Source: Demequina muriae | Lineage (GTDB): Bacteria; Actinomycetota; Actinomycetes; Actinomycetales; Demequinaceae | Assembly: GCF_030418295.1 (NCBI RefSeq) | Contig: NZ_JAUHQA010000001.1 | Location: forward strand, 2,480,001-2,544,000 | DNA length: 64,000 bases | Direction: 5' to 3' | Part shown: positions 35,145 through 56,287 of the stretch, in pieces | Layout of the letters: every line of letters begins with the position of its first letter | How positions within the stretch are numbered: position 1 is the stretch's first letter | The notes under the pieces: model-generated | The model's input: the letters and a program-made list of their open reading frames with translations, nothing else | Databases searched by the model: none | Told to the model about the DNA's origin: nothing | Translations under genes and position numbers: made by a program

Positions 35145-35219
35145 TGGTGGGCGATACTGGGATCGAACCAGTGACCTCTTCCGTGTCAGGGAAGCGCGCT
35201 ACCGCTGCGCCAATCGCCC
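35145..35219 (-). tRNA. tRNA-Val (GAC)
   Basis: On the minus strand the acceptor GGGCGAT (35213-35219) pairs with ATCGCCC (35149-35155). The anticodon arm CTTCC-CTGACAC-GGAAG places GAC at positions 34-36. The T arm contains GGTTCGATCC. Discriminator A and the CCA end are encoded. It is the last gene of a three-tRNA operon and nearly identical, apart from the anticodon loop, to the tRNA-Val(CAC) at 40497. Confidence 0.95.
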
Positions 35220-36631: not shown

Positions 36632-37500
36632 GCGTGATCGTGTGGTCCGGTGGCGCACTGCGCGCGCCGGGCGAACCGATCATCACCGCCACGGATCACG
36701 GTCTCACTGTGGGGGACGGCGTCTTCGAGACTCTCACCATTCGCGACGGCCAGCCCTTCGCGCTCACCCGCCACCTCGCGCGGCTGCGGTACTCGGCGGA
36801 GCGCATCGGCCTGGCGGAGCCCGATGCGGACGCCGTTCGCGCGGGCATCGCGGCGGTGATGGAGGCGGGCGCGGGCGCGCTGACGCGCCTTCGCGTGACC
36901 GTCACCTCGGGTCAGGGGCCGATGAGCTCGGCGCGCGGCGACGGACCGCAGACCGTGGTGGTCACCGGGGGACAGGCGGCTCGCCCGCACGTGTGTCACG
37001 CCGTGCGCGCGCCCTGGCACCGCAACGAGCGGTCGCCTCTCGCCGGCGTGAAATCCACGTCGTACGGCGAGAATGCCGTGATGGCGGCATACGCGCGTGA
37101 CAAGGGCGCGGACGAGGCCATCGTCGCGAACACGCACGGCAACCTGTGCGAGGGCACCGCGACCAACGTGTTCGTCGAGGTCGATGAGGAGATCGTGACG
37201 CCGCCGCTCGCATCGGGCTGCCTGCCGGGGATCACGCGGGGGCTCGCCCTCGAATGGGCCGCCCAGGCGGGACTGCCGATCCGCGTCGCGGCACCCGGCG
37301 AGCTCACCATGAGCGTGCTCGACGCCGCGATCGAGGGCCGCGCCCACCTCGCCGTGACATCCTCGACCCGTGGCGTCCAGCACATCGCGAGCCTCGATGG
37401 GCACGACCTCGCAGCGGGTCGACTGCTGCGCAAGCTGGGCGCGCTGTTCGAGCTCAACGCCGAGCGCGATCCCGATCCGGCGCCGCGTCGCTCCTCGTAA
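36628..37500 (+). CDS. pabC: aminodeoxychorismate lyase (PLP fold type IV)
   Basis: This 290 aa enzyme releases pyruvate from 4-amino-4-deoxychorismate to give 4-aminobenzoate. The PLP lysine lies in LAGVKSTSYGENAVMAA. EGTATNVFVEV and SGCLPGITRG are the phosphate-binding segments of the fold type IV aminotransferase family, and ATDHGLTVGDGVFETL is the family's N-terminal signature. Branched-chain or D-amino-acid aminotransferases share these motifs. The 4-base overlap with pabB is the main reason to call it PabC. Confidence 0.87.
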   Translation: MSVIVWSGGALRAPGEPIITATDHGLTVGDGVFETLTIRDGQPFALTRHLARLRYSAERIGLAEPDADAVRAGIAAVMEAGAGALTRLRVTVTSGQGPMSSARGDGPQTVVVTGGQAARPHVCHAVRAPWHRNERSPLAGVKSTSYGENAVMAAYARDKGADEAIVANTHGNLCEGTATNVFVEVDEEIVTPPLASGCLPGITRGLALEWAAQAGLPIRVAAPGELTMSVLDAAIEGRAHLAVTSSTRGVQHIASLDGHDLAAGRLLRKLGALFELNAERDPDPAPRRSS

Positions 37501-37507
37501 ACGATGG

Positions 37508-37523
37508 ATGAGAGCACTCTCAT
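37508..37523. promoter_or_regulatory. palindrome ATGAGAG-N2-CTCTCAT upstream of the repeat-protein gene
   Basis: A perfect 16 bp palindrome (7 bp arms, 2 bp centre) lies between pabC and the Ser/Pro/Ala-repeat gene, about 82 bp upstream of that start. A third half-site, CTCTCATCC, is at 37539-37547, 22 bp downstream of the second arm. The same palindrome occurs upstream of the two-component operon at 40411-40425, which suggests binding by that response regulator. A T-tract is absent, so it is not an obvious pabC terminator. Confidence 0.5.
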
Positions 37524-37604
37524 GTGGCTCTCCCCGTTCTCTCATCCGGCGTCGGCACAGTAGTTCTCGAGGGGCCCGCACGGGGCTCCGCTAGGAGGAT
37601 CATC

Positions 37605-38057
37605 ATGGCCAAGCAGACAGCATGGATCGTCACCGGAGCACTCGGCATCGCCGCGCTGGGCACGGGCGCCGCCTTCGCCTCCAACAACGACGACCGCCCC
37701 GACCTCGGCCCCGGCGTCGAGCTCAGTGAGAGGAGCGACCGCCAAGGGGGCGTCGTCACCATCAGCTCGCGGATGTCGAGCGTCACTCCCGTGAGCGTCC
37801 GCACCAGCGCGTCGCCGCAGTCGCCGGTGTCCGTGCTCTCGACCCCGAGCCCCGCCTCGACGCAGAGCGCCGCCTCCCAGGCGAGCCCCGCATCGGCCCC
37901 GAGCCCGGTGTCGAAGGCCAGCCCGGCATCGGCGCCGAGCCCGGCGTCGAAGGCCAGCCCCGTGAGCCCCGCCAGCCCGGCTTCCGCCAACAGCCCCGCC
38001 TCGGCGAACAGCCCCGAGTCCGCTGACTCGCCCGCCTCCGCCGAATCGGCGGACTGA
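37605..38057 (+). CDS. secreted Ser/Pro/Ala-repeat protein
   Basis: This 150 aa protein follows a strong CTAGGAGGATC ribosome-binding site. Residues 1-26 look like a signal peptide (MAKQTAWIVTGALGIAALG then GAAFAS). After a short linker, from about residue 66, it consists of low-complexity SPAS-type repeats (SPAS, SPVS, SPES) with interspersed K, N, Q and later E/D, ending SADSPASAESAD. It has no membrane anchor or sortase motif. Such tails may span or decorate the cell wall; the function is unknown. It is transcribed toward the two-component operon, which reads the opposite way, and shares an upstream palindrome with it. Confidence 0.75.
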   Translation: MAKQTAWIVTGALGIAALGTGAAFASNNDDRPDLGPGVELSERSDRQGGVVTISSRMSSVTPVSVRTSASPQSPVSVLSTPSPASTQSAASQASPASAPSPVSKASPASAPSPASKASPVSPASPASANSPASANSPESADSPASAESAD

Positions 38058-38165
38058 GGCCCCCCGCCACGGCCCGTCCACGCGTCGCTGATGCCTCAGC
38101 GGCCCGTGGGCGGGCCTGGTGGCGTCCGGGACCGGGAATGCGCTGACGCCGTCGCAGGACCGGTG

Positions 38166-38849
38166 TCAGGTCGACTGGGCGGCACCGCCGTCGCGCCGCC
38201 AGCGGTAGCCCACGCCTCGCACCGTCTCGATCCACTCCGCGCCCACTTTGGCCCGCAGGTAGCGCACGTAGACGTCCACCACGTTGGACCCGGGGTCGAA
38301 GTCGTAGCCCCACACCTGGGCGAGCAGCTGTTCGCGAGCGAGCACCTGGCCCGGGTGCCGCATCAGCGTCTCCGCCAGGGCGAACTCTCTTGCGGACAGA
38401 TCGATGGTGCGGCCCTGGAGAGACACCGTCCGCGCCCGCAGGTCCAGCACCAATGACCCGTGCTCGATGGTGGTCGCGTCCGCGCCGTCCACGTGACGCA
38501 GACGCAGGCGAATGCGCGCGAGCAGCTCGTCGAACCCGAACGGCTTCGACATGTAGTCGTCGGCGCCACCCTCGAGGCCCGCGACGGTGTCGTCGAGCGA
38601 GCGACGGGCAGTAAGGATGATCACCGGCGCGCTGACCCCGCTGTCGCGCATGCGGCGCAGCAGGTCCATGCCATCGCCGTCCGGCAGGCCCAAGTCGAGC
38701 ACGATCAACGCCGGATCGTTCACCAGCACGGCGTCCATGCCCTCCCGCACCGTGGACGCACGGACGGGTACGTAGCCCGCGGCGGTGAGGCCCTTGGCGA
38801 TGAAGGACGCGATACGATCCTCGTCCTCGACGATAAGGATCTGGGTCAT
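38166..38849 (-). CDS. OmpR-family response regulator
   Basis: This 227 aa DNA-binding regulator has a receiver domain with acidic pocket EDED (residues 8-11), phospho-acceptor Asp52 (IVLDLGLPDGDG) and the conserved Lys in SKPFGFDELLARI. A winged-helix output domain follows (about 130-220, ending VRGVGYRWR). Its start overlaps the stop of the histidine kinase gene by 4 bases. The likely targets include its own operon and the neighbouring repeat-protein gene through the shared palindrome. Confidence 0.93.
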   Translation of the reverse strand: MTQILIVEDEDRIASFIAKGLTAAGYVPVRASTVREGMDAVLVNDPALIVLDLGLPDGDGMDLLRRMRDSGVSAPVIILTARRSLDDTVAGLEGGADDYMSKPFGFDELLARIRLRLRHVDGADATTIEHGSLVLDLRARTVSLQGRTIDLSAREFALAETLMRHPGQVLAREQLLAQVWGYDFDPGSNVVDVYVRYLRAKVGAEWIETVRGVGYRWRRDGGAAQST

Positions 38850-40366
38850 GCGGTCACCTCAGGCTCGGGGGAGGGCGGGAGCACGATCGTGAAGGTCGAC
38901 CCCTCTCCGGGTGCGGAGACGCACTGGACGGTGCCGCCGTGGCCCTCGGCGATCGCCTTCACGATCGCGAGGCCCAAGCCGGATCCGTCGGTGCTGCCAT
39001 CCCCGGCGCGCACGAAGCGTTCGAAGATGCGCTCCTGGTCCTCGGCGGCGATGCCCACACCCTCGTCCCGCACCCACAGCTTGGCTCCCTCGGGAGTCGA
39101 TGCGGATCCCAGGCAGATGGCGGAGCCCGCGGGTGAGAACTTCACGGCGTTGGCGGCGAGCTGCAGCCAAGCCTGCGTGAGGCGCTCGCGGTCGCCGCGA
39201 ACCGTGGCGTCGCCGCGGGCCTCCACCGACCAGTCGCGGTCGCCCAGCATGACCACCTTGTCGAGGATGTCGTCGGTCAGCGGGCCGATTCCCACCTCTC
39301 CGAGGGTCACGAAGTCCGGTCGGTCGATGGTCGCGAGGGTGGTGAGGTCGCCCACGACACGGTTCATGCGATCCACCTCGTCGAGAGCGAGCGCCCTCAC
39401 CTCGCGTGCATCGTCAGGGTCGTCGGGGTCCATGAGTTCGAGATGGCCGCGCACGATGGTGAGCGGGGTGCGCAGTTCGTGGCGCACGTCGCCCACGAGC
39501 TGGCGCTGGGAGTCGAACGCGGCCTCGATGCGGTCGAGCATCTCGTTGACCGAGGCCGTCATCTGCGCCATGTCGTCCGTGCCGGTGACGGGAATGCGCT
39601 CGGAGACATCGCCGCGGCCGATGCGGGTCGCGGTGCTCGCGAGCACGCGGACGGGGGCCAGGAGTCGGCCGGCGATCGCCCAGCCCACCGCGGTGACCAC
39701 CGCCAGCGACGAGGCGGCCACGAGCGCGTACGTCACGAAGACCTCGTTGAACGCGGCGTGCTCCGCGTCGACGTCATAGCCGAGTACCAGGGCGGCGACA
39801 GAGTCATGGGCGGGCACCGCGTCGTCCGGCTCTTCGGCGAGCGCGCCGTCCGCAGTGGTGCGCACGGGCACTGCGGCGAGCCGATAGCGTGCGATGTCCG
39901 TGGTGATCGTCGTGTACGTGGCCGTGTCGCCGATGACGAGCGGGCCGAGCTTGTCGACCAGCTCCGGATCGTCCTCGAGCGCGATATCGGCGCCGCGGGT
40001 GGTGTACGCGACCTCGCCGCCCACGATCCCGAGCACGCCCTCATTGCGCGCCGGGATCACGCGCTCCATCGCGGTGCGCACCAGTTCCTCAGGGGAGGCG
40101 AACGGCTCGCCGGTGCGCGGGTCCACCCCTACTGTCGCGAGCACCCGGAACTCCTCGGCGGAGGCGGACAGGTCGGCGTCGATGCGGGCGTCCACCCGCG
40201 CGTCCTGCAGCGCAGACGCGGTGTATCCGGCGGTGAAGAGCGCGAGGGCGGTGAGGCCGAGCACCGCCAGCAGGATGGCGGACCTCACCGTGAGGTGGGG
40301 GAGGCGGAGGCGCCACCGACGGCGCGCGGGCGCCGCTGGGGGGTCGTCCTGCACGCTGTCCGTCAT
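38846..40366 (-). CDS. sensor histidine kinase
   Basis: This 506 aa membrane kinase has a basic N-terminal tail, a first transmembrane helix near residues 30-50, an extracytoplasmic sensor region of about 180 residues, a second transmembrane helix (LVAASSLAVVTAVGWAIAGRLL), HAMP, HisKA with DVRHELRTPL and HATPase_c with GSGLGLAIVKAIAEGHGG. The ligand is unknown. The ATG at 40366 gives MTDSVQDDPPAAPARRRWRL. The upstream palindrome at 40411 is about 45 bp before this start. Confidence 0.92.
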   Translation of the reverse strand: MTDSVQDDPPAAPARRRWRLRLPHLTVRSAILLAVLGLTALALFTAGYTASALQDARVDARIDADLSASAEEFRVLATVGVDPRTGEPFASPEELVRTAMERVIPARNEGVLGIVGGEVAYTTRGADIALEDDPELVDKLGPLVIGDTATYTTITTDIARYRLAAVPVRTTADGALAEEPDDAVPAHDSVAALVLGYDVDAEHAAFNEVFVTYALVAASSLAVVTAVGWAIAGRLLAPVRVLASTATRIGRGDVSERIPVTGTDDMAQMTASVNEMLDRIEAAFDSQRQLVGDVRHELRTPLTIVRGHLELMDPDDPDDAREVRALALDEVDRMNRVVGDLTTLATIDRPDFVTLGEVGIGPLTDDILDKVVMLGDRDWSVEARGDATVRGDRERLTQAWLQLAANAVKFSPAGSAICLGSASTPEGAKLWVRDEGVGIAAEDQERIFERFVRAGDGSTDGSGLGLAIVKAIAEGHGGTVQCVSAPGEGSTFTIVLPPSPEPEVTA

Positions 40367-40496: not shown

Positions 40497-40568
40497 GGGC
40501 GATTGGCGCAGTGGTAGCGCGCTTCCTTCACACGGAAGAGGTCACTGGTTCGAACCCAGTATCGCCCA
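40497..40568 (+). tRNA. tRNA-Val (CAC)
   Basis: The acceptor GGGCGAT (40497-40503) pairs with ATCGCCC (40561-40567), and the discriminator is A. The anticodon arm CTTCC-TTCACAC-GGAAG gives CAC. CCA is not encoded. A TACTAT -10 element (40479-40484) sits 13 bp upstream. Its 3' half is the left attachment site of the island that follows. Confidence 0.95.
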
Positions 40569-40631
40569 CTCGTAGAAAGCCCTGGTATCCCTTCTCGCCG
40601 ATGGGTGCCAGGGCTTTTTGCATGCGCGGCG
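40523..40631 (+). repeat. left attachment repeat (attL) in tRNA-Val(CAC)
   Basis: This segment starts in the anticodon stem of tRNA-Val and runs through its terminator to about 40631. It is repeated in the same orientation at 44627-44735, 4104 bp away, with only five mismatches over the first 105 bases (positions 40543, 40573, 40588, 40614 and 40617). A direct repeat of the 3' half of a tRNA is the classic footprint of tyrosine-recombinase integration. Confidence 0.88.
40576..40619 (+). terminator. terminator of tRNA-Val(CAC)
   Basis: AGCCCTGG (40578-40585) pairs perfectly with CCAGGGCT (40608-40615), followed by a T run to 40619. It is part of the attachment repeat, so a slightly altered copy also exists at about 44681-44723. 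Confidence 0.8.
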
Positions 40632-40750
40632 TTGGTCGATGCGTGCCCTAACGGCACTCACAACCCCACCGCGAGGTGAGTCAACTCGAATGTAGGTGTT
40701 GTCCATGTGGAACAGCCTTGCCTGACCACCTCGAGTATCAGGAAGGCCGG

Positions 40751-41218
40751 ATGGTGAGAACGTACGAGCCGCGGGATCTCGGGGAGCTCGCCGAACTTGT
40801 GCGCAACGCGCGAGGTGCGATGCTCTCGATAGAGGCCGAACCGAGCCGGAACCTCAAGGAACTGTTCCCCGCGATGTGGTGTGAACATTCCTCTATCGTG
40901 ATAGCGGAGACGCTCCTGCGGCGAGGACTCGGTGCCTGGACCTTCGTCGCTATGGGGCACCGCGACGGTCCCAATGGTCACGCTTGGCTCGAGCTGCGAG
41001 ATGAGGGCGAGAATCGACTTGTGACGATCGACGCGACGATTGATCAGTTTGACTGGGGCAGGGACTTGCCTTTCGTGAGCGCGACGCAGACCCGTGCCGC
41101 GACAGAGTTCACCGTGCCGCGCTATTCGGGTCCATGGCAGCACTGGCCCGTTCTCGAGAGGGACTCCTCGTTTCTGACTTACGCCGAGGCCTTCGTGAGG
41201 CAGTCAGGCCTTATTTGA
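40751..41218 (+). CDS. transglutaminase/cysteine-protease-like protein (island)
   Basis: The ATG at 40751 follows GGAAGG; the frame is open to 40676. The 155 aa product shows a plausible papain-like triad: Cys in AMWCEHSSIVIAETLLRRG, His in GHAWLEL and Asp in TIDATIDQF, in the order and spacing of transglutaminase-like or NlpC-like hydrolases. No signal peptide or membrane segment is present, so it would act in the cytoplasm. The substrate is unknown. It is the first gene inside the island and has no partner on its strand nearby. Confidence 0.6.
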   Translation: MVRTYEPRDLGELAELVRNARGAMLSIEAEPSRNLKELFPAMWCEHSSIVIAETLLRRGLGAWTFVAMGHRDGPNGHAWLELRDEGENRLVTIDATIDQFDWGRDLPFVSATQTRAATEFTVPRYSGPWQHWPVLERDSSFLTYAEAFVRQSGLI

Positions 41219-41321
41219 GTGGTTTCTTCGCAGCGCAGGTTCTGCGACAGCAATGTCACAGCCAGAGCGCGCTGCGGAGTGACCCCAGCGCCGCAGCCTG
41301 CGGCTCAGAGCCGCAATGCTC

Positions 41322-41440
41322 CTAGATGTTCAGCGTCGTCGATGCTCTCGCGTGGCCGAGGACTCGAGGCATGGCGACGATGTCCGCACCGCCGGCGATC
41401 ATGAGTGAAGCGGCGGATTGGCGCAGAGTGTGCACGGACG
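41322..41440 (-). pseudogene. C-terminal remnant of a tyrosine integrase
   Basis: On the minus strand the frame reads HTLRQSAASLMIAGGADI and then RVLGHARASTTLNI, the HxLR box and LGH box of phage-type tyrosine recombinases. The codon after TTLNI, where the catalytic Tyr belongs, is TAG (41322-41324), followed by GAG CAT. The similarity fades upstream of about 41440, so the catalytic Arg I and the N-terminal domains are lost. Both facts argue that the island's own integrase is dead. Confidence 0.78.
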
Positions 41441-41499
41441 CCACGCACTGGCCCACCCGCGGCACCCCGACCAAGGCCGCACCTACGCGCCTGTTCGAT

Positions 41500-41796
41500 C
41501 TGCCGGTGCCGCTTGACGCGGCCATCCTTGAGGGGGAACCAATCGTCGCGGACTGGGCGACCGTGAGCCTGCGCCACCTCAATGGCATGGGCGTTCGCTG
41601 GCACGAGCACGGCGCCCAGACCGAGAGCGAGGCAGTGCTGGATATGTTCTCCCGCAACGTCCTGTACTTCCGCGCCGAGGTCCGCAACGCGCCGATCATC
41701 GCGTCGCCACTATCGGTGCGGCTCGTGGATCTCACGGCGGCGCAGGACGTGCCGCGCTGCCCGCCAGGTCCGGGGGCGTCGGCGTGTCGGAGGTAG
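41500..41796 (+). pseudogene. coding-like fragment of unknown family (island)
   Basis: The plus-strand frame ending at the TAG at 41794-41796 has strong GC-rich third positions and a protein-like composition, beginning about LFDLPVPLDAAILEGEPIVA and including GMGVRWHEHG, FSRNVLYFRAEVRN and SVRLVDLTAAQD. No convincing start is seen: the same frame upstream reads through the antisense integrase remnant. It may be the 3' part of a gene truncated when the elements recombined. I do not recognise the family. Confidence 0.4.
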
Positions 41797-41857
41797 GTGT
41801 CAGAGCCGCTCGCCAGACTAGACACGCCAACACAGGCATCGGGGAATTGGGGAGACC

Positions 41858-42103
41858 ATGGCCGAGAACATCCGCATCGAGTTCGACGAGCAGGCACTCA
41901 ACAGGCTCGGCGGCGACATCGCTGCAAAGGCCGAGAAGGCGATCAACGGCGTTGCCGACGACATGGCAGGAGGCAACTCAGACGCAATCGCTGTCGAGAT
42001 TGAGAAGCGGCTGCGCTCTGTAGGCATCGAGCCACACTCAAGCGTTGTGAAAGAGCACGCTGAGAGGATCGCACTAGCCCGAGGGGCCGACGCCAGTGAC
42101 TGA
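41858..42103 (+). CDS. small helical protein of unknown function (island)
   Basis: This 81 aa protein starts at an ATG after GGGGAGACC. It is predicted to be mostly helical and charged (AAKAEKAINGVADDM; VEIEKRLRSVGIEP) and ends HAERIALARGADASD. Small proteins of similar layout occur on actinobacterial mobile elements, but I cannot name a family. It overlaps the next gene by 8 bases, which suggests translation coupling and a joint role. Confidence 0.55.
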   Translation: MAENIRIEFDEQALNRLGGDIAAKAEKAINGVADDMAGGNSDAIAVEIEKRLRSVGIEPHSSVVKEHAERIALARGADASD

Positions 42104-42689
42104 CGCGCCGTTATGGCTTCAGGTGACTGCCGTTGCAGTCCCTGCACTTGTGAGCATCGGTTCGGCTATTTGGGCGTCCAGGTCGGCGAACAGGGCGAGA
42201 AGGTCCGAACGCGACGCTGCTCGGCTTCTAGCGCTTGAAGAACGTACAGCGAGCAAAAAGTACGAGTTGTACGAGCCGTTTGTGGTTCACCTTGGTGATC
42301 TCCTGACGCCCGCACGCAAGGAGGCTGCGGAGGTGCGATCAGAAGAGGTGATGGCTGACTTCCAAACCTCGGTGATGATGTGGGGCTCCGACGATGCGGT
42401 GAGCGCGTTCTCTCGTTTCCGACGAGCATCGTCGACCAATCCACCGGGCCACATAGCCATGAGGTTAGTGGCCGATCTGCTGCTGGCGATCCGTCGCGAC
42501 GTAGCAGTACCTGACAGTCGTGCGACAGGCATGGAGATCCTGGGATCGCGTCTGAACGACTTGAAGAAAGGCAGCGCGATCACCCGTGCCCTTGAAGCTC
42601 CATTTCCCGAGGTTTGCAAGGAGCACGGTTGGGAGCCACCGTTCGACTTTGAGGAGCCCCGGCGCGCACGCTTCGGTAGACGGCGATAG
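42096..42689 (+). CDS. single-pass membrane protein of unknown function (island)
   Basis: The GTG start at 42096 lies inside the end of the 81 aa gene. The 197 aa product has one N-terminal transmembrane helix (VTAVAVPALVSIGSAIWASR), a short basic coiled segment (SANRARRSERDAARLLALEE), and a soluble helical domain that includes FQTSVMMWGSDDAVSAFSRF. The overall layout is seen in many uncharacterised accessory-region proteins. No enzyme motif is visible. Confidence 0.6.
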   Translation: MTDAPLWLQVTAVAVPALVSIGSAIWASRSANRARRSERDAARLLALEERTASKKYELYEPFVVHLGDLLTPARKEAAEVRSEEVMADFQTSVMMWGSDDAVSAFSRFRRASSTNPPGHIAMRLVADLLLAIRRDVAVPDSRATGMEILGSRLNDLKKGSAITRALEAPFPEVCKEHGWEPPFDFEEPRRARFGRRR

Positions 42690-42753
42690 CGGCGCGCAGG
42701 ACCACGCGAACTGGACTTGTCGAGCTGTCGTAGGGGGCCGATAGGGTCACGTC

Positions 42754-43404
42754 ATGGCAGCTAACACTTGCGGCTGGTGCAACCACCGCACCCACATGGC
42801 ATTCGTAAAGGGCACCTACTACTCGGCCCGTGATGGCCAGTTCGATTTTCACAATGCTGCCTACCAGTGCATCAATTGCGAGCGGTACTCGGTGGCGTAC
42901 TGGCAACATCTCTACTACGAGCCTGATCCGTCAGAAGGGCGGTTCGTGGGTGATGGGGGTGGACCAGTTCCTCCGGACTGCGCAGTTTGGAATCCACCGG
43001 CAGGGGCACGCAAGGAGTTCCCCGATGTCCCCGACCACCTCGGTGCAGTCGCGTCCGAGGCGCACCTGTGCCGGGCAACGGGCGCACTGCGAGGGTCAGT
43101 GATACTTGCTCGCTCAGTCATTGAAGGTGTGGCGAAGCATCTTGGTTGTGACGAGTGGGGGATCCAAGCAAAGATCACGTGGCTCCGTGAACAACAGCAC
43201 ATAAGGCCCAAGACCTTCGAGGCTGCGAACGCTCTGCGCCTCGCGGGCAACGACATCGCGCACGCGGATCCTGGTGAGTCCGTTACCGCCGAAGAATGCG
43301 ACGAACTCCTGGTCCTCATGGCTGTAGTTCTGGACGAGGCCCTTGAATCGGACGTGCGGCTCGCCCGCGTGAAGGAAGCGCGAGAGGCTCGCACCGGCAA
43401 GTAG
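42754..43404 (+). CDS. DUF4145 domain protein with N-terminal zinc-ribbon-like cysteines (island)
   Basis: This 216 aa protein opens with CGWCNHRTHM and has a second pair, CINCERY, giving a CxxC-N29-CxxC zinc-ribbon pattern. The DUF4145 part (about 90-200) includes ALRGSVILARSVIEGVAKHL and ANALRLAGNDIAHADPGES. DUF4145 proteins are common on mobile elements and near restriction or abortive-infection genes, and are thought to be HEPN-related. No RxxxxH-type catalytic HEPN motif is obvious here. The function is open. Confidence 0.72.
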   Translation: MAANTCGWCNHRTHMAFVKGTYYSARDGQFDFHNAAYQCINCERYSVAYWQHLYYEPDPSEGRFVGDGGGPVPPDCAVWNPPAGARKEFPDVPDHLGAVASEAHLCRATGALRGSVILARSVIEGVAKHLGCDEWGIQAKITWLREQQHIRPKTFEAANALRLAGNDIAHADPGESVTAEECDELLVLMAVVLDEALESDVRLARVKEAREARTGK

Positions 43405-43442
43405 GGTCCAACCGTCGTACCTCGGCGGATGAAGGGAACTCT

Positions 43443-44447
43443 GTGGCATTCGAACCGTTCGACGCTGCTTGGCAACGTTGGGAGCGGGCCCGTGCGCGCA
43501 TGACGGAAGCGGTGCAGGTCTGGAACGGTTTCATCGAGCCGCATGACGCCTTCGACTTCAGCCTGGACGGTGACGACACCGGGGTTTTCATTTTGCGGGT
43601 GCACCAGGTCCGTCCGACGCCACCAGAAATGGCCGTCGTCATCGGCGAGTGGCTTTACAACCTTCGAGCTGCCCTTGACTACCTCATGTGGGCGACCGCC
43701 TGCTACGTCGCCGGGTCTGTCCCGCCCCCCAAGGAGAACGTCCTTCAGTACCCGATCTACGACACAGAGTCAGCGTGGACGAGCAATCTCTACAGGCTGG
43801 ATGGCCTTCTCGATCACCATCGAGAGATGCTGCTATTGATGCAGCCGTTCAATAGCGATATAGACGCAAACTACCTCGGTTGGCTTAACCGCCTCGCGCG
43901 CATCGACCGGCACCGAAACCTCGTCACAGGTTCGGCACGTCTTGGTCTGGTTGAGCCTGTGCTGAGGTGCCCCGAGGGTAGCCGCGTGATAGTGGAGTGG
44001 GGCGAACGGATGATCGTCGACGGTCGGGCGGACGTGGCACGGTTCACAGTTCAGCCGTACTGGCCCGGAGCGGTTGTGGACGTGAATCCGCGCGTAGGTA
44101 TCGACCCGGAGATCGATGAGTGGTCTCGTTCACCATTCTGGGGCAAAGTCACTTTCCAGGAGCGCCTGCGGATGATTCAGGTGTTCGTTGCGGGGGAGAT
44201 TGCGGCATATGAGTACGACTGCACCGGGTCAAGCCGGAAGTCCAACATGGTTAGCGATGAGTTCCAGAAGGCTATGGACGAGCGGCGGGGACCCGTGCCC
44301 AAACTTGCACGGCAGCGGCCACCCATGACGTGGACGCGGGGTTCGGGCAAGGTGTCTACGCGCACGATGTTCGAAGGTGCGGATTTTTGCGATGACGGCG
44401 CCGGCCCGATCGATAGCGGTCCTTCGGGCTTGGGAGTGGCGCGCTAA
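43443..44447 (+). CDS. uncharacterised accessory protein with helical N-terminal domain (island)
   Basis: This 334 aa protein starts at a GTG after GAAGGGA. The N-terminal part has long helices (AAWQRWERARARMTEAVQVW) and the segment GEWLYNLRAALDYLMWAT, a motif I have seen in unannotated proteins of actinobacterial phages and islands. The C-terminal half is mixed alpha/beta. The last ~40 residues (after WTRGSGKVSTRTMFEGAD) look disordered. It is the last gene before the right attachment repeat. No function can be assigned. Confidence 0.62.
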   Translation: MAFEPFDAAWQRWERARARMTEAVQVWNGFIEPHDAFDFSLDGDDTGVFILRVHQVRPTPPEMAVVIGEWLYNLRAALDYLMWATACYVAGSVPPPKENVLQYPIYDTESAWTSNLYRLDGLLDHHREMLLLMQPFNSDIDANYLGWLNRLARIDRHRNLVTGSARLGLVEPVLRCPEGSRVIVEWGERMIVDGRADVARFTVQPYWPGAVVDVNPRVGIDPEIDEWSRSPFWGKVTFQERLRMIQVFVAGEIAAYEYDCTGSSRKSNMVSDEFQKAMDERRGPVPKLARQRPPMTWTRGSGKVSTRTMFEGADFCDDGAGPIDSGPSGLGVAR

Positions 44448-44504
44448 CAAACCCTGCGCACTACCAGGCATTGCGGTGCAGGCAAGGAGGTCCTCGGTGG
44501 TCCG

Positions 44505-44524
44505 TACCCCAATTCCTACCCCAA
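44505..44524 (+). repeat. paired TACCCCAA direct repeats near the right attachment site
   Basis: TACCCCAA occurs at 44505-44512 and again at 44517-44524, a 12 bp period, about 100 bp inside the right end of the island. Short tandem repeats beside an att core often are arm-type integrase binding sites. The surrounding stretch (44448-44626) otherwise holds nothing I can identify. Confidence 0.35.
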
Positions 44525-44626
44525 CCAGGCAGCTTCCGCGGTGGACCGTCGATATGCGCTCTTGTGCGGAGGTCTGGGTTTACCATGCGTGACGCACTGC
44601 GGCGAACAGTGGCGGATCGGAGGTCA

Positions 44627-44735
44627 TTCCTTCACACGGAAGAGGTCGCTGGTTCGAACCCAGTATCGCCCACTCGCAGAAAGCCCTGGTAACCCTTCTC
44701 GCCGATGGGTGCCAGGGTTTCTTGCATGCGCTGCG
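44627..44735 (+). repeat. right attachment repeat (attR), partial tRNA-Val copy
   Basis: This second copy of the attachment repeat contains the 3' part of tRNA-Val from the anticodon stem (44627) to the discriminator (44672), plus a slightly changed terminator hairpin. The 5' half of the tRNA is absent, so it cannot be functional. It marks the right end of the island. The remaining bases to the hydrolase start at 44801 show no gene. Confidence 0.85.
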
Positions 44736-44800
44736 CGGGCCGTTGGCGCCATTATGTCTGTCGCATGCCGGGAGTAGCATCGACCAGAGGTGATGACCTC

Positions 44801-45610
44801 ATGACGACAGCGCGTTCTACGCCGCACACCACCACCTCGGCCGACGGCACCGAGATCGTGCGCTGGTCGAGCGGAGCCGGCCCGCCCCTGCTCCTGGTGC
44901 ATGGCGCGATGTCGGACCACCGGCGCTGGCGCATCGTGCCGCACCTCACGCCCCATGCGACCGTGCACGCGATGGATCGGCGTGGCCGAGGAGAGAGCGG
45001 CGACGCGCTGGAGTGGTCCCTGGACCGGGAAGTCGCGGACATCGTCGCCGTCGTCGATGCCATCGCGGACGAATCCGGGTCTCCTGTGGACGTGCTCGGT
45101 CACTCTCTCGGTGGCCTGCTGACGTTGCGTGCCGCGCTGGACACCTCGAACATCCGGCGACTCGTCGTCTACGAACCCTCCGTCAACGAGCTCGCGTGCT
45201 CTCCGCAGACAATCGCCGCCATGGAGGCGCACCTCGGGCGCGGAGACCGGGCCGCAGCGGTGCGCACCATGATGCGTGAGATCGTGCTCATGCCCGAAGG
45301 CGAGATCGAATACCTCGAGTCGCTGCCCTCGTGGCACACCAGGCTTGCTGCAGCGCACACACTGCCTCGCGAGTTGGGCACGGATCTGGTCATGCGACCC
45401 GCAGACCTGCGGCAGATCACCGTGCCCGTGGTGAGCATCCTGGGTGGCGATAGCCCCGAGTCCGTACAGGCTGCAGCGCACATGATGGCGGCCAATGTGC
45501 CGCGCCACCAACTGATCGTGATCGAGGGCCAGCAGCATGTGGCGGACCAGGTCGTTCCGGAGGAGTTCGCGCGTCACGTGCTCCGCTTCCTGCGCGACGA
45601 GGCCCGGTAG
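44801..45610 (+). CDS. alpha/beta hydrolase
   Basis: This 269 aa protein has an oxyanion region LLLVHGAMSDHRRW, the nucleophile elbow VLGHSLGGLL and a late His in EGQQHVADQV, which fit the alpha/beta-hydrolase triad; the acid is probably the Asp in LGGDSPES. No signal peptide is seen. The ATG at 44801 is preferred for its position after GAGGTGATG; an in-frame ATG lies at 44765. It is the first gene outside the island. The substrate is unknown. Confidence 0.85.
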   Translation: MTTARSTPHTTTSADGTEIVRWSSGAGPPLLLVHGAMSDHRRWRIVPHLTPHATVHAMDRRGRGESGDALEWSLDREVADIVAVVDAIADESGSPVDVLGHSLGGLLTLRAALDTSNIRRLVVYEPSVNELACSPQTIAAMEAHLGRGDRAAAVRTMMREIVLMPEGEIEYLESLPSWHTRLAAAHTLPRELGTDLVMRPADLRQITVPVVSILGGDSPESVQAAAHMMAANVPRHQLIVIEGQQHVADQVVPEEFARHVLRFLRDEAR

Positions 45611-45675
45611 GTCGCTGGGGACGCATGGGCGACAGTCGCTCGCCGTCCGCGAGCGCCTCCGGGTATCTCCGCCGT

Positions 45676-47436
45676 TCAGTCGCGGCAGGTCGACTCCGCC
45701 GGGGTGCCGGCGAACCGCTCCTCGGTCCAGGTGAGGAGCTCGCCCACCAGCGCGGACTCGTCGGCGACGATGCTGAGGTGATCTTCGTCGGGGTACGTCC
45801 GGTAGTCGAGCTCGTGACCGTCCGCGCACCGCTGATCCACATACGCCTGTTGTGCGGCTGGCAGCACCAAGGGGTCGGCGTCCCCTTGAGCCAGCAGGAG
45901 CGGCGCGTCAATGGCGCCGGAGGGGACGTTCTCGGCGAGCCTGTCCACGAATGCGCCGGTCTTGGCGTCGTCGGTGAAGATCGTGTCGCCGAACAGGAAG
46001 GTCTCGATCACAGAGACGAGTGCCCCAGGCTCGGCTAGGCAGCGGCCAGCGATCTCCTTGACCTGCACTCGTGCCGCCGGGCGGACGATGTCGTCGAAGG
46101 ACACATCGTCGTAGACCGCGCTGTAGGCCTCGACGATGTAGGACGCGAACAAGGTGCCGCCCGGGACGACGTCGAGGTTGTCAACAAGTCCAGGAAGATT
46201 GCTCGCGGGTGCCATCGCGGAGACGCCGACCACCCCGGCATCCGGCGCGTAGTCCGATGCGAGGACGCCGGCCCACAACGCGGCGTGGCCGCCCTGCGAA
46301 TGACCCCAGACCACCGTGCCGTCAGCCCACACGACGTCCCGCAGCTGCCGGGCGGCGCGCACGCTATCGAGCACCGACCGGCCCTCCGCTTGGCCGATCA
46401 GATAGGGGTGTGGACTCTCGGTTCCCAGGCCCACGTAGTCGGTCGCGACCATCACCCACCCGTTGTCGACGACCTGGGGCAGCGCCGGCGTCGCCCCTGC
46501 TTCGAAAGGGTGCTCCAGCACTGATGGAGCACATCCTGGCACCACGCCCGTCGTGCCGTGCGCCCAGGCGACGATGGGGCGGGGCTCTGTGCTGGCTGCA
46601 AGTGGCGCCACCACGAGAGCACTGGCGACGGCAGGCTGCCCCTGGTCACGCGTGGTCGTGTAGAGGATCCGCCAAGCCAGCGCGCCATCCGGGACGTCGC
46701 GGGTGAAAGGCTCGCTCGCTAGGAGCACGCCGGGCTCGGCCGGCACGTCGTCTGGCGGGTCGTAGAAATCGTCGGCGACTGGAGTGCCCTGCCGCAACGT
46801 GACGCTCACCGTCACGAGCAGCAGAGCCACGGCGAGCGCCATGATGGCGCCGAGGGTCCGGACGAATCGTCGGGCGGTGCCCGCGGTGCGAGTCTCGGGA
46901 TCGACGTCGGGGGCACCACGCAGCGCCGCCCACACCAGTCCGACTCCGGCGAGCACGGTGCGGACTCCGAAGAGGACGGCGACCACGAAGACAGTGACGT
47001 CTGGCCACACCAGCGCCAGCGCGCCCAACAGGAGTCCCGCGCCTCCCAGGAGCGCCGATGCGAGACGGGCATCGACAGTGCCGCGCAGCGCCGCGGCGAC
47101 GCGGAGCGCACCGGCCAGCGCCATGGCGAGTCCGGCCACGACTGCGAGCACCTGCAGAGTGGGGCCGGGCCAGAGTGCGACGACGGTTGCGGCCGTGACC
47201 CATCCCAGGCCGGTGATGCGAGCAGCGGCCCGCGAGCGCCCGCTGCGGGCAGCCGTCAACTCACCGATGCCGGTGAGTGCCATGGCCGTGATCACCAGCA
47301 GCACCAGGACTGCGAGAGAGGCGAACGGCGTCACCGTCAGCACCGCGCCGACCAGGACGAGGAGCAGCCCCACGACGAGGCGACCCCATGGGCGCGCAAG
47401 CCGCGGCGCGGATTCAGACACCACCGAAGCGCTCAT
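45676..47436 (-). CDS. DUF308-type membrane domain fused to a secretory-lipase-like hydrolase
   Basis: This 586 aa fusion has about seven hydrophobic helices in residues 15-230, in the pattern of HdeD/DUF308 proteins (for example VGLLLVLVGAVLTVTPFASL). An extracytoplasmic hydrolase of the secretory-lipase (LIP) type follows. It has IVAWAHGTTGVVPGC, the nucleophile elbow VWGHSQGGHAALW, Asp in AQGDADPLVLP and His in YPDEDHLS. The product is thus a membrane-anchored esterase or lipase, probably facing outward. ATG at 47436; a GTG two codons earlier is in frame. Its 3' end converges on the alpha/beta hydrolase. Confidence 0.8.
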   Translation of the reverse strand: MSASVVSESAPRLARPWGRLVVGLLLVLVGAVLTVTPFASLAVLVLLVITAMALTGIGELTAARSGRSRAAARITGLGWVTAATVVALWPGPTLQVLAVVAGLAMALAGALRVAAALRGTVDARLASALLGGAGLLLGALALVWPDVTVFVVAVLFGVRTVLAGVGLVWAALRGAPDVDPETRTAGTARRFVRTLGAIMALAVALLLVTVSVTLRQGTPVADDFYDPPDDVPAEPGVLLASEPFTRDVPDGALAWRILYTTTRDQGQPAVASALVVAPLAASTEPRPIVAWAHGTTGVVPGCAPSVLEHPFEAGATPALPQVVDNGWVMVATDYVGLGTESPHPYLIGQAEGRSVLDSVRAARQLRDVVWADGTVVWGHSQGGHAALWAGVLASDYAPDAGVVGVSAMAPASNLPGLVDNLDVVPGGTLFASYIVEAYSAVYDDVSFDDIVRPAARVQVKEIAGRCLAEPGALVSVIETFLFGDTIFTDDAKTGAFVDRLAENVPSGAIDAPLLLAQGDADPLVLPAAQQAYVDQRCADGHELDYRTYPDEDHLSIVADESALVGELLTWTEERFAGTPAESTCRD

Positions 47437-47587
47437 GCGCACCTCGCGATCATCATGGTCACGGCGTACGTGACGCGTCCATCCGCGTGGGTGTGGCGTC
47501 CCCGATCGACGCCACGACTACAGGGCTCCAGGGTATTCGATGCCCCCAATCCCGCACCAGAGGGAGCGCTCACCTAGGGTGAGACCC

Positions 47588-48352
47588 GTGGCAACCACCG
47601 CAGCCGGCATCCTCGCTCGCGCTCGACGCATCGGCCGGGCTCCCGGCGAGGCGTGGGCCTTCGCGCAGCTGCCGCCCATCGCCCGTGCCGTGATCCGCGA
47701 GCGGCTCACGTATCTGTCTCCAGTCAAGATGCTCGAGCTCCAGCGTGCGGTGCGCGACGTGGACGCGGCCACCGTGCCGGGAGACGTCGTCGAGTTCGGC
47801 GTGGCCCTCGGGGGCTCGGGGATCGCGCTGTCGCACACGGCCAGCACTCGCGCCTTTCATGGCTTCGATCTGTTCGGGCTGATCCCGCCGCCGTCGAGCG
47901 ACAAGGACGGCGAGCGTGCGGTGCAGCGATACGAGGTCATCGCGTCGGGACTGTCGGCAGGGATCCGCGGAGACGAGTACTACGGCTATCTTCCCGACCT
48001 GCTGGGCACCGTGAAGGCGAGCTTCACCCGGCACGGACTTCCCGTCGATGGCGGCCGCATCGCCCTGCATCCGGGGCTCTTCGACGAGGGCTGGCCGCTC
48101 GCTTCACCGTCCGTGCAGGCCATTGCGCTCGCGCACGTGGACTGCGACTGGTACGACCCCGTCCGCTACTGCCTCGACGCGATCGCGCCGCTGATCTCAC
48201 CCCGCGGCATCATCGTGCTCGACGACTACCTCGACTACGACGGGTGCCGGGCGGCCACGGACGAGTTCCTCACCGCGCATGCCGAGTTCTCGGTGAGGCA
48301 TCGGCGCGGCAACGTGTCGCTGGTCAAGTCCGGCGCGGTGTCGGACGGCTGA
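47588..48352 (+). CDS. TylF/macrocin-O-methyltransferase-family protein
   Basis: This 254 aa class I methyltransferase-like protein has the TylF pattern: an early helix segment YLSPVKMLELQRAVRDVD, SAM-site region VPGDVVEFGVALGGSGIAL, then ALAHVDCDWYDPVRYCLDAI and GIIVLDDYLDYDGCR, carrying the acidic metal ligands expected for Mg2+-dependent sugar O-methylation. It is divergent from the lipase fusion. Whether it modifies a glycan or natural product is unknown, as no biosynthetic cluster is nearby. Confidence 0.8.
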   Translation: MATTAAGILARARRIGRAPGEAWAFAQLPPIARAVIRERLTYLSPVKMLELQRAVRDVDAATVPGDVVEFGVALGGSGIALSHTASTRAFHGFDLFGLIPPPSSDKDGERAVQRYEVIASGLSAGIRGDEYYGYLPDLLGTVKASFTRHGLPVDGGRIALHPGLFDEGWPLASPSVQAIALAHVDCDWYDPVRYCLDAIAPLISPRGIIVLDDYLDYDGCRAATDEFLTAHAEFSVRHRRGNVSLVKSGAVSDG

Positions 48353-48423
48353 CAGCGCGACACGCCGTTGCTCCGGCGTGTCCCAGGTGTGACGTTCGGC
48401 GCCTCGCCGTGATGTGATGAGGC

Positions 48424-49626
48424 ATGGCGAGCGATCATGCGGCAGCGCCGCTGCTGACCGGGCCCGAGGCCGGCGACATCCTCGCGACGGCGCTCGCGAC
48501 CATGGAGGTCGAGCTCGACTCCTGGAGCGTCGATTCGGTCAACGCTCGGCCGGGAGCCGAGACCTCCGTGGGATACGACGTCGTCGCCGGGGGAGAGCGG
48601 CTCTACCTCGTCGCCTCGACGGTGTCGCTCACGGACGAGCAGCGTGCGGCGGCCAAGGCAGTCCGCCTGGCCTCGGACGACGGGGAAGTTCACGTGTGGC
48701 GCCACCCCGCGGATCCGTACCTCCCCGGGCTGGCCGATGCGTGCGTCCCTGAGACTCTCGCGCCCCGCCTCAGCGCGGCGACCGGGAGGACCATCACCAT
48801 CGAGTCACTCGACATGATGGTGATGCGGCCCATGCGCAGAGCGGTGCTGAGGGTGCACACCGTCGCAGAGGACGGCCGTCGCACCTGGTACGTGAAGGTG
48901 GTGCGGCCTGAGCGCGCTGCCGCCATGCTCGCTCGCCACCGCATGTGCGACCTCGCCCCGATCGCTCTCGATGCGGGCGACGGCATCGTCGTGGTGCAGG
49001 AGGCGCATGGCACCCCCATGACCCGCGCGCTGCACCGTCCCGACGGTTCCGAGCCGGCACCCATCGACCCCGCGATGCTGCTCGCGGCGATGGATCGGTT
49101 GCCCGCGGAGGCCACTGCGTTGGATCACCGCCCGCCGGTGCCCGACCGCGTGTCGCAATACGCGCGGATGGCGATCGCCGAAGGTCTGCCTCAGGACCGG
49201 GTGGAGGCGCTCGAGCAGCGCATCACGGCGGCGCTGGCAGCCGCGCCGGAGCACCCCACGGTCGCCACGCACGGCGACCTCCACGCGGCGAACATCTACC
49301 TCGACGACGCGGTGGCGCCCACCCGAGTGGAGGCCGTGATCGACCTCGACACCCTCGGGCCGGGGCGGCGCATCGACGACTGCGCGTGCATGGTCGCGCA
49401 CATGATGGTGCTCCCGCAGCTCGACCCGGAGGGCTACCGGGGCGTGCCTGCGATCGCCTCTCAGGTGCTGGAGGCCTTCGGTGCGCGCTTCGGGATCGAG
49501 GAGCTGCGGGCGCGCGTCGCCGCGAACATCCTGTCGCTGGTGGCCGGGGCCGAGGACGGGTCCATCGCCGCCGCATGGCTGGAGGCCGCCGAGTCCGTGA
49601 CGAGCGGTCGCGCCGCAACCGACTAG
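48424..49626 (+). CDS. aminoglycoside phosphotransferase (APH)-family kinase-like protein
   Basis: This 400 aa protein has a C-terminal kinase-like lobe with the Brenner-type catalytic loop THGDLHAANIYLDD and the metal motif VIDLDTLGPG, typical of APH and choline-kinase-like phosphotransferases. The nucleotide lobe includes TWYVKVVRPE as a candidate ATP lysine. Such proteins phosphorylate small molecules; the substrate is unknown and a resistance role is not implied. Its last four bases overlap the end of the convergent glutaminase gene. Confidence 0.82.
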   Translation: MASDHAAAPLLTGPEAGDILATALATMEVELDSWSVDSVNARPGAETSVGYDVVAGGERLYLVASTVSLTDEQRAAAKAVRLASDDGEVHVWRHPADPYLPGLADACVPETLAPRLSAATGRTITIESLDMMVMRPMRRAVLRVHTVAEDGRRTWYVKVVRPERAAAMLARHRMCDLAPIALDAGDGIVVVQEAHGTPMTRALHRPDGSEPAPIDPAMLLAAMDRLPAEATALDHRPPVPDRVSQYARMAIAEGLPQDRVEALEQRITAALAAAPEHPTVATHGDLHAANIYLDDAVAPTRVEAVIDLDTLGPGRRIDDCACMVAHMMVLPQLDPEGYRGVPAIASQVLEAFGARFGIEELRARVAANILSLVAGAEDGSIAAAWLEAAESVTSGRAATD

Positions 49627-50930
49627 GCGCGTGGTGCCGCACGCTCCTCGTCGGCGACGAGGTCCGCGGTCTCACCGAGGTCGTTCACGACCGTCACCCG
49701 GCCACCGCCCGGATGAGGACCCGGGAGGATCGACTCGGGGTCGACCAGGGTGACGCCATGACCTTCGAGCGTGAGCCTCCGCACGATCTCCAGCAGCATG
49801 CGCCGTGACACGTCGTCGACCGACGAGACCATCGTGAGATCGAGTGCGACCCTCGTCTCTGCAGGGGCAGTCTCGACGACTTCTCTCACCACCCTCTCGA
49901 CTCCGGCGAAGCGGATGCCGCCCTGCAGCTCGATCACGCGGATCGCGTGCGGACCGGAGCCGACCACACGGTTGGATCGCACGACCGCGCGCGCAGCGGG
50001 TGGCACCTCCATCACATGCAGGCCCATGTCGGACGAGAAGCGGTGGAACAGCGACACCCCGCGAACACTCGTCCCGTGCGCGTCCAACCGGGGCGAGAAC
50101 GTCGCGATGCCGATCTGGCCAGGCAGAGTGCCGATCAGGCCCCCGGCTACGCCGCTCTTCGCAGGAATGCCGACTTGGGTGGCCCAGTCGCCGGCAGCGT
50201 CGTACATCCCGCACGTCGCCATCACGCTCAACACCTGACGCAGCACCGGTTCCGGCACCACCTGCTTACCTGACAGCGGATTGACTCCACGGTTGGCCAG
50301 GGTTGCCGCCATCACCGCGAGATCGCGGGTGGTGACGAGCAGGGAGCACTGTCGGATATAGCCCTCGACGACTGTCGCAGGGTCCTCGGTGAGGATGTCG
50401 TGACTGCGGAGCATATGCCCGATGGCAAGGTTCCGATGCGCGAACGCCATCTCCGAAGCGCAGACCGACTCGTCCATCTCCAGCTGGCGGCCGGCGAAGG
50501 CGGAGAGTCCGTCGACCACCCGCTCGAGGCGCTCCGCAGGGTCAGAACCTGCGACCCCCACCAGCGAGTGCGTGGTGATGGCTCCCGCATTGATCATCGG
50601 ATTGAGAGGACGTCCGGAGCCGCCTTCGAGAGAGATCTCGTTGAATGCCTCCCCGGACGGCTCGACGCCGACTCTGGCCAAGACCGCGTCGAAGCCACGG
50701 TCGGCGAGGGCCAGCGCGTAGACGAAAGGCTTCGAGATCGACTGGATGGAGAACTCGGCATCGCAGTCGCCCGCAGCGTAGACCTGTCCGTCGACCGTCG
50801 CGAAGGCTGCACCGAGCTGCTCGGGCTCGGCATCTGCGAGTTCGGGGATGTAGCCGGCGGTGGCACCGGACGTGTCCGGCTCGACGTGCTCGAGCACATC
50901 GGTCAAGTAGTCAGGAATCATCGATCGCAT
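49623..50930 (-). CDS. glsA: glutaminase A with C-terminal STAS domain
   Basis: This enzyme hydrolyses glutamine to glutamate and ammonia. Residues 1-310 are a full beta-lactamase-like glutaminase: catalytic Ser-x-x-Lys in FSIQSISKPF, NPMINAGAI, GHMLRSHDIL and SGVAGGLIGTLPGQIG. Residues ~330-420 form a STAS domain (RVALDLTMVSSVDDVSRRML). The 435 aa length exceeds the usual ~310 because of this tail. STAS domains bind partners or nucleotides, so activity may be allosterically controlled. Start is the ATG at 50930, with 50921 possible. Confidence 0.9.
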   Translation of the reverse strand: MRSMIPDYLTDVLEHVEPDTSGATAGYIPELADAEPEQLGAAFATVDGQVYAAGDCDAEFSIQSISKPFVYALALADRGFDAVLARVGVEPSGEAFNEISLEGGSGRPLNPMINAGAITTHSLVGVAGSDPAERLERVVDGLSAFAGRQLEMDESVCASEMAFAHRNLAIGHMLRSHDILTEDPATVVEGYIRQCSLLVTTRDLAVMAATLANRGVNPLSGKQVVPEPVLRQVLSVMATCGMYDAAGDWATQVGIPAKSGVAGGLIGTLPGQIGIATFSPRLDAHGTSVRGVSLFHRFSSDMGLHVMEVPPAARAVVRSNRVVGSGPHAIRVIELQGGIRFAGVERVVREVVETAPAETRVALDLTMVSSVDDVSRRMLLEIVRRLTLEGHGVTLVDPESILPGPHPGGGRVTVVNDLGETADLVADEERAAPRA

Positions 50931-50951
50931 GCGCCATCTCCATCCGTTCGC

Positions 50952-51353
50952 TCAGTGAGGGTGGGTCGTGGCCGAGGTGATGCGTGCGACCAGCGCGATG
51001 TCACCGGATGTGGGCCGACGGAACCTTCCGCCACGACTCACGAAGTCGTCGCCGTGCCGCGCCAGGTGCTTCGCGAACAGGGGGCATACGGGAACGACGG
51101 TGAGGTCGTGCCGGACGCAGTCGGCGAGCGCCTCGCGAACAAGGAGTCCCGCAAGCCCGCGGCCGCGGACTGCGTGATCGACTTCCGTGTGGAAGAAGAT
51201 GCGTTCGCCGAGAACCGTGGGGGAGTCGAAGAAGTCCGCCTGGCCGACGAACGAGCCGTCGGCGAGAGCCACCGTGTAGCTGCTGATCGGTCGGCCATGC
51301 CGGAGCATGACCGCTGCGGTCTCTGCGCTGTTGACGTCATGCTGCTCAGTCAT
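50952..51353 (-). CDS. GNAT-family N-acetyltransferase
   Basis: This 133 aa protein resembles the short YjdJ-type GNAT family: RIFFHTEVDHAVRGRGLAGL contains the acetyl-CoA-binding RGxGLA loop, followed by DLTVVPVCPLFAKHL. The substrate is unknown. Its start overlaps the esterase stop by 4 bases, and glsA follows 21 bp downstream, so all three may be one transcript. Confidence 0.82.
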   Translation of the reverse strand: MTEQHDVNSAETAAVMLRHGRPISSYTVALADGSFVGQADFFDSPTVLGERIFFHTEVDHAVRGRGLAGLLVREALADCVRHDLTVVPVCPLFAKHLARHGDDFVSRGGRFRRPTSGDIALVARITSATTHPH

Positions 51354-52420: not shown

Positions 52421-52423
52421 GGC

Positions 52424-53026
52424 TCACGTCGTCTCGACGAGCAGGGTGAGGGCTGCCCACACGGACACCGTGGCGAGACTGGTCCAGATCACGATGGCGA
52501 CGGCCTGCCATAGCAGGACCCACCGCCGAGGAGTGCCGCCGCCCACCAGGATCGCCGCCGTGAACTGGGTCGGGATGGCGAGTGGTCCGAGGATGCTCGC
52601 ACCGGGGACGCCGAAGCGGACCACCCACCGCTTGAAACGTTGCCGCCCCTTCGACTCGGGCGTCGGGGACGCTCGCTGTTCGCCCTGTTCTCCCTGTTCG
52701 TCCTGTTCGCCCTGATCGTCGTCGAGACCAGTCGGGCCACTACCACCGGCGGTCGCCGCGACTGAGATGCGTCGGCGGCCGACCACGGCTGTGCGGGCAC
52801 GCGACGTGACTGCGACGACCAGCAGCACGCACAGGAAATTCCCGCCGGCTGCGGCAGCGGCCGCGACGATCGGATGAAGACCGCCGACGACCCCGACGAT
52901 GGCGCCCCCCTCGCCCTCGATGAACGGGATCGCCGCCGCGAGCGCGACGACGAGGGGCTGGACGATGTCGGGCACGTCGGCGACCAGCATCTGAAAGCTG
53001 CTGATCGTCTCATCGATGGCGCTCAT
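52424..53026 (-). CDS. putative small multi-drug export family membrane protein
   Basis: This 200 aa protein follows a strong AAAGGAG site. Its helices (IVQPLVVALAAAIPFIEGEG, IVAAAAAAGGNFLCVLLVVAV, then two near the C-terminus) match the COG2426 family annotated as small multidrug export, whose substrate is unproven. Between the halves lies a hydrophilic loop with a short repeat, GEQDEQGEQGEQ. That loop looks slippage-prone and may vary between strains. It belongs to a minus-strand gene run from the chloroperoxidase-like hydrolase to glsA. Confidence 0.8.
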   Translation of the reverse strand: MSAIDETISSFQMLVADVPDIVQPLVVALAAAIPFIEGEGGAIVGVVGGLHPIVAAAAAAGGNFLCVLLVVAVTSRARTAVVGRRRISVAATAGGSGPTGLDDDQGEQDEQGEQGEQRASPTPESKGRQRFKRWVVRFGVPGASILGPLAIPTQFTAAILVGGGTPRRWVLLWQAVAIVIWTSLATVSVWAALTLLVETT

Positions 53027-53094
53027 ATCGAATCTCCTTTGGTGGTGGCCGAGGCCTGTCTCGGGTGCTGACGGGCTGGCGCCCAGCCGTGGGG

Positions 53095-54186
<1,092 letters not shown>

Positions 54187-54288
54187 TCACCTCGGACGTC
54201 CGGCAGGCGGTGCACAGGTGCGAGCGTTCCTCGCGGTTCACCCAGCACTGGCCGGCCGTCCTCGCTCATCGTGGAACGAGGTCTCACC

Positions 54289-56183: not shown

Positions 56184-56287
56184 ACCCGGTCCACCTGCGC
56201 CGCGCCGCGCGACACCGGGCACCGCGATGAGTGCCAACCGCGGCAAGCGGTCGACGGCGACACTCGAGAAGCCACGGGAGAGAGACC

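Follow-up and report, generated by a model that had tools for sequence, protein, structure and literature searches.

Prophages and genomic islands that enter tRNA genes by means of tyrosine integrases form a described class (Williams 2002, NAR 30:866, as cited in PMC10121019), in which, as far as that citation conveys, the 3′ part of the tRNA gene is duplicated, the tRNA stays intact and the integrase gene lies next to it with its 3′ end facing the tRNA. Integrase-only defence islands at hotspots of Escherichia coli are likewise small, occupy a fixed site and carry defence-type cargo, with an integrase as the sole mobility gene (PMC10121019). Here we describe a locus of Demequina muriae that shares these features with both. 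The window, the whole stretch of DNA that was analysed, comprises 64,000 nucleotides of the forward strand of contig NZ_JAUHQA010000001.1 (positions 2,480,001–2,544,000; genome G000 in our comparison). Its segment 40523–44735 is very probably a decayed integrase-type integrative element (a temperate phage, a phage satellite or an integrase-only island) that recombined with the gene for tRNA-Val(CAC). Site-specific integration is supported by a direct repeat of part of the tRNA, an integrase remnant in the canonical orientation, a break in composition and genes that occur only sporadically, and by two other species in which this tRNA is occupied by an integrase of the same family.

Both ends of the island carry the 3′ end of the tRNA gene as a direct repeat. 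One ungapped match of 109 bp joins 40523–40631 to 44627–44735 with six mismatches, five of which fall in the first 105 positions, exactly as a preliminary description of this DNA had reported, and its local score of 188 compares with a maximum of 25 across 200 shuffles. The repeat starts at base 27 of the 73-base tRNA and ends 62 bases past it; identity breaks off sharply at 40523/44627, and the sequences upstream of the two copies are unrelated. ARAGORN calls a functional tRNA-Val(CAC) at 40497–40569 and no tRNA at the right copy, which bears out the earlier view of a working gene on the left and a half gene on the right. Searching the whole genome with the tRNA returned three matches: the two repeat copies and a paralogous tRNA-Val(GAC) at 35147–35219. 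No island-free relative was found to carry the right half-tRNA copy.

The 4.0 kb between the repeats hold five small open reading frames (ORFs) on the plus strand and, at the tRNA-proximal end, the C-terminal ~50 residues of a tyrosine integrase; five genes and an integrase remnant had been proposed, and both are present, although the remnant is short. It reads VHTLRQSAASLMIAGGADIVAMPRVLGHARASTTLNI, then TAG, then EH, with the stop at the position of the catalytic tyrosine of its relatives (LGHxxxxxTxDxYxHL). It is most similar to the integrase that a prophage carries at this tRNA in Demequina iriomotensis NBRC 109399 (G002; E 3.8e-6, 40–49% over ~40–55 residues), and it also matches PHROG integrases (E 2.5e-4). 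The C-terminus faces the tRNA in both species; in D. muriae, one gene (orfA) intervenes. Three further species have relatives of this integrase at tRNA-Pro, tRNA-Arg and tRNA-Lys. Because the integrase is broken, excision of the island without help in trans is not expected.

The island also differs in composition from its surroundings. Its GC content is 62.1%, compared with 69.8% for the rest of the window and 66.3% for the lowest of 260 other 4-kb segments, and its dinucleotide distance (0.118) exceeds the control maximum (0.106). GC at third codon positions ranges from 0.64 to 0.73 in the island genes and from 0.74 to 0.93 in the other genes measured. Genus mates in Demequina either lack the island genes or have them rarely or in decayed form, and the genus as a whole does not share the block. 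Both refuting conditions named in the preliminary description, a second half-tRNA in island-free relatives and a universal block, came out in its favour. The repeat, the integrase, the composition and the relatives together uphold the proposal of a foreign island acquired by site-specific integration.

In the genus members examined, the locus has the order pabB, pabC, tRNA-Val(CAC), a variable stretch and thrS. The distance from the tRNA to thrS is ~0.13 kb in G021, 0.35 kb in G009, ~7 kb in Demequina aestuarii NBRC 106260 (G014; the nearest relative, with ~89% DNA identity) and ~20 kb in the window. The 4.1-kb island is the tRNA-proximal part of this ~20-kb variable hotspot. At the same tRNA, D. 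iriomotensis has an apparently intact prophage with integrase, repressor, AAA ATPase and terminase-type genes (L034, L102), and a matching 43-bp half-tRNA lies on another contig. Demequina sp. NBRC 110055 (G051) has a broken integrase, a small cargo and a 45-bp second half-tRNA 2.6 kb downstream, for which its sister G024, with an empty site, has no counterpart; the alignment of the pair stops exactly where the tRNA gene ends and resumes 5.4 kb later at tdk. This pair provides an empty and a filled state at the same attachment site, whereas an empty site with the island's own flanks, which the preliminary description had called for, is present in none of the genomes compared.

A strong terminator hairpin, which we call T-type (AAAGCCCTGGTA...TGCC[A/G]GGGCTTT), lies within both repeat copies. 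Among 44 Demequina genomes it follows tRNA-Val only in D. muriae (twice), D. aestuarii, D. iriomotensis and G051, and most others have various unrelated hairpins there. A pattern search of 84,980 species genomes, from which the D. muriae genome itself was possibly left out, found it in only three Demequina contigs. In D. iriomotensis the T-type hairpin stands on the tRNA side, and the far half-tRNA has the terminator type of its relatives G006, G023 and G011; both there and in G051, T-type is confined to the tRNA side and adjoins the integrase. On a PabC tree (a single gene, midpoint rooted), T-type occupies three places, and three changes are needed to explain it.

Because T-type stands at the tRNA in three separate lineages and D. 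iriomotensis has a native-type terminator at the far end, the terminator appears to be brought by the element; most simply, it would be part of the element's attP. The preliminary description had treated this terminator as belonging to tRNA-Val, and we correct it to element-borne rather than native. More generally, this Demequina integrase family probably bears a replacement tRNA terminator in its attachment site, such that each integration would swap the terminator of the host, which would then outlast the element as a scar recording past integrations and offer later elements a longer landing site. We envisage that an element whose attP bears the tRNA 3′ part and its own strong terminator would recombine with tRNA-Val(CAC) of the Demequina chromosome, leaving a working tRNA gene with a swapped terminator and displacing the former 3′ part downstream. 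All of the integrase but its C-terminus would later have been lost, and the element would have become immobile, with the cargo alone remaining. Pattern searches of viral contigs and phage records gave no match to an attP of this type, and no record spans both tRNA and terminator. A keyword search of the literature found nothing direct on element-borne tRNA terminators, which is no proof of absence.

T-type terminators at both ends of the D. muriae island would be unexpected from a single integration into a native site, and need either two elements in turn or a T-type scar that was already present. This suggests that probably at least two such elements entered the tRNA-Val(CAC) site one after the other. 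In the history that we favour with reasonable confidence, two or more elements accumulated at the tRNA, an earlier one of them has its left end in the right copy at 44627, and the chromosomal edge with its native terminator was lost at some point before thrS. The doubled terminator in the window and the single, tRNA-side terminator in D. iriomotensis and G051 are consistent with this history, as are the unequal tRNA-to-thrS spans and, in G051, another low-GC gene (DUF4062/HEAT) that follows the half-tRNA and precedes a native-like terminator. Against it, no further half-tRNA or integrase piece above chance lies between 44735 and thrS, and the genes in these 15.7 kb have host-like GC. Part of this stretch is absent from the locus in D. 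aestuarii. The proposed bounds of 40523 and 44735 enclose a real tRNA-proximal segment, but it is one part of the hotspot, and its right copy probably marks where two arrivals meet rather than the old edge of the chromosome.

It is less likely, although conceivable, that the terminator is native to this lineage and that one element with a lineage-derived terminator integrated once, the long repeat then reflecting identity of attP and attB past the tRNA. D. aestuarii, where no integrase is detectable at this site, has the same terminator (54/55), which favours this explanation. Yet T-type is spread over three lineages and adjoins the integrase in D. iriomotensis and G051, and behind its tRNA D. 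aestuarii has different DNA together with a DUF4145 gene remnant. That the repeat is a segmental duplication made by ordinary recombination without an integrase is very improbable: it extends past the tRNA and is longer than the 43–55 bp cores of relatives, but it starts within the tRNA and comes with an integrase remnant, a composition break and same-family integrases at the site in relatives.

Several observations weigh against the reading of the segment as a decayed integrative element and have to be set beside the evidence for it. The match of the short integrase remnant to PF00589 is weak (E 7e-4) and under the gathering score. The island has no significant PHROG structural match, and so lacks the structural and packaging genes expected of a prophage. 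No strict empty site for its own flanks is available, as D. aestuarii has its own DNA behind the tRNA and does not have the right flank of the window (44736–47569) there. The left terminator matches that of D. aestuarii at 54 of 55 positions and the right one at 50 of 55, the reverse of what the simplest two-element history predicts, so that either order of arrivals is conceivable; selection on the working copy could explain the closeness of the left one. Finally, the DUF4145 remnant beside the tRNA in D. aestuarii could mean an older, shared arrival. We rejected shared descent for it, as its DNA identity of 65% is under the 71–78% seen at fourfold sites of shared genes, and separate acquisition is more likely, though not proven.

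Table 1. Coordinates and properties of the island, its boundaries and flanking features in the window.
Feature	Coordinates	Strand	Remarks
Two-component system	38166–38849; 38846–40366		Response regulator; sensor kinase
tRNA-Val(CAC)	40497–40569	+	Intact, integration target; called by ARAGORN; kept between pabC and thrS across the genus
Left direct repeat (attL)	40523–40631	+	tRNA 3′ part and terminator; 103/109 identical to 44627–44735
T-type (element-type) terminator hairpin, left copy	40572–40621	+	−32.9 kcal/mol, z −7.5
orfA	40751–41218	+	155 amino acids (aa); no Pfam, NCBIfam or PADLOC family; a single clear homologue among 297 genomes of the order
Integrase remnant	41313–41477	−	Last ~50 residues of a tyrosine recombinase, with the C-terminal end facing the tRNA; TAG where relatives have the catalytic Tyr
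orfX	41464–41796	+	Doubtfully coding open frame that joins the integrase remnant
orfB	41858–42103	+	81 aa; no significant family match
orfC	42096–42689	+	197 aa; N-terminal membrane-like segment; 8-bp overlap with orfB; no named family
Zinc-ribbon and HEPN (DUF4145) protein	42754–43404	+	216 aa; candidate phage-defence effector
orfE	43443–44447	+	334 aa; uncurated LRxxLD...DRHR family, found in prophages, on plasmids and in defence-type neighbourhoods
Right direct repeat	44627–44735	+	Half tRNA and second T-type terminator; attR, or a two-element junction
T-type terminator hairpin, second copy	44676–44725	+	−28.4 kcal/mol, z −5.2
Remainder of the variable stretch up to thrS	44736–60451		Alpha/beta hydrolase, lipase, methyltransferase, phosphotransferase, glutaminase, regulators

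One cargo gene (Table 1) encodes a zinc-ribbon protein with a DUF4145 domain (PF13643; 1.8e-11, 44.4 bits against a gathering score of 23.1), which also matches phrog_1305 (1.7e-17) and the PADLOC profile of the defence protein PD-T7-4 (3.6e-8, covering residues 5–192). Four cysteines are invariant in its alignments. An AlphaFold model of the C-terminal half (residues 94–214), confident in most blocks, shows the helical HEPN fold, and its top matches in the Protein Data Bank are HEPN proteins (probability ~1, TM-score by target 0.61–0.64, with weak E-values). The consensus motif of HEPN proteins is Rx4-6H; the island protein has R-x2-GN-x2-AH, in which seven residues separate the invariant R162 and H170. 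The most likely role would be RNA cleavage that aborts phage infection, a prediction that we hold to be somewhat more likely than not; an anti-phage role for the other cargo genes would be less likely. Relatives of the protein occur on actinobacterial plasmids and viral contigs, and a single-protein pattern search for DUF4145 in genome contigs confirmed none.

Homologues of orfE were found in eight of the 297 genomes of the order, and its family alignment has the invariant motifs LRxxLD and D[RK]HR. One relative, the moron-like gene 34 of prophiGD13-2, belongs to a prophage of Mycobacterium abscessus; others neighbour an ImmA/IrrE-type gene (G157) or a TIR-AAA gene (G230). A pattern search for orfE relatives in viral contigs found none, and a structure prediction made without an alignment was too poor to use (pLDDT 36). 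orfC has homologues in six of the 297 genomes, none of them in Demequina. orfA has a transglutaminase-like Cys/His/Asp pattern, judged by eye only. orfX has no homologue among the 297 genomes, and weakly resembles a broken frame in an island of G021 (35% over 75 aa).

That island, a separate one of 3.5 kb (G021 L035:10546–14098), lies behind tRNA-Val(GAC) with an exact 55-bp tRNA repeat at its borders, and its cargo comprises a Hypoth_Ymh (TIGR02391) HEPN-type gene as well as the frame that is weakly like orfX. The DUF4062/HEAT protein of G051 (L089:11696–14041) matches the PADLOC candidate PDC-S60 at 1.3e-17. In D. aestuarii, a 73-bp direct repeat (93%) of a methyltransferase gene start (L033:12535–12607 and 15952–16024) flanks 3.3 kb that contain a DUF4145 remnant and a UvrA-like gene, possibly a second insertion in the same hotspot. 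The same genome is missing ~10.7 kb of the window (49627–60344; glutaminase, SDR, a LuxR-type regulator and others) between the phosphotransferase gene and thrS. On the other side of the tRNA, a two-component system and a small ORF (37499–40309) separate pabC from tRNA-Val in the window, unlike in D. aestuarii, D. iriomotensis, G021 and G051, where pabC directly precedes the tRNA. G013 has two closely similar integrase-type frames (L128 and L129), each near a 31–32 bp piece of the tRNA-Val 3′ end and with no tRNA gene on the stretch examined; these are perhaps two copies of another element aimed at the same tRNA.

The locus offers a comparative case of repeated use of a tRNA site in one genus, in which empty, intact, broken and worn-down states can be seen side by side. 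An element-borne tRNA terminator could serve as a record from which past integrations are counted and dated. What survives of the cargo includes a few anti-phage candidates open to direct testing, namely one HEPN protein and one unnamed family.

Compared with tRNA-targeting prophages and islands, as they are represented in the citation above, the D. muriae repeat core differs in that it includes the whole terminator, and the integrase is reduced to ~50 residues. Unlike the E. coli integrase-only islands, the D. muriae island has a dead integrase, a cargo whose defence role is putative and an actinobacterial host. The prophage of D. iriomotensis shares its attB, a homologous integrase and a homologous terminator, but there the integrase and repressor come with a phage gene set that includes terminase. 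The DUF4145 protein resembles PD-T7-4 in matching its profile and lying near an integrase; the similarity is low, and protection is putative. Through its PF13643 domain and a C-terminal half that is predicted to fold like solved HEPN proteins, it compares with the DUF4145 branch of the HEPN superfamily, for which zinc-ribbon fusion has been reported (PMC3710099). The island is ordinary and of a known kind; what is new is the placing of it within a hotspot, a terminator brought by the element, a site that was probably used more than once and a defence-like gene in the cargo.

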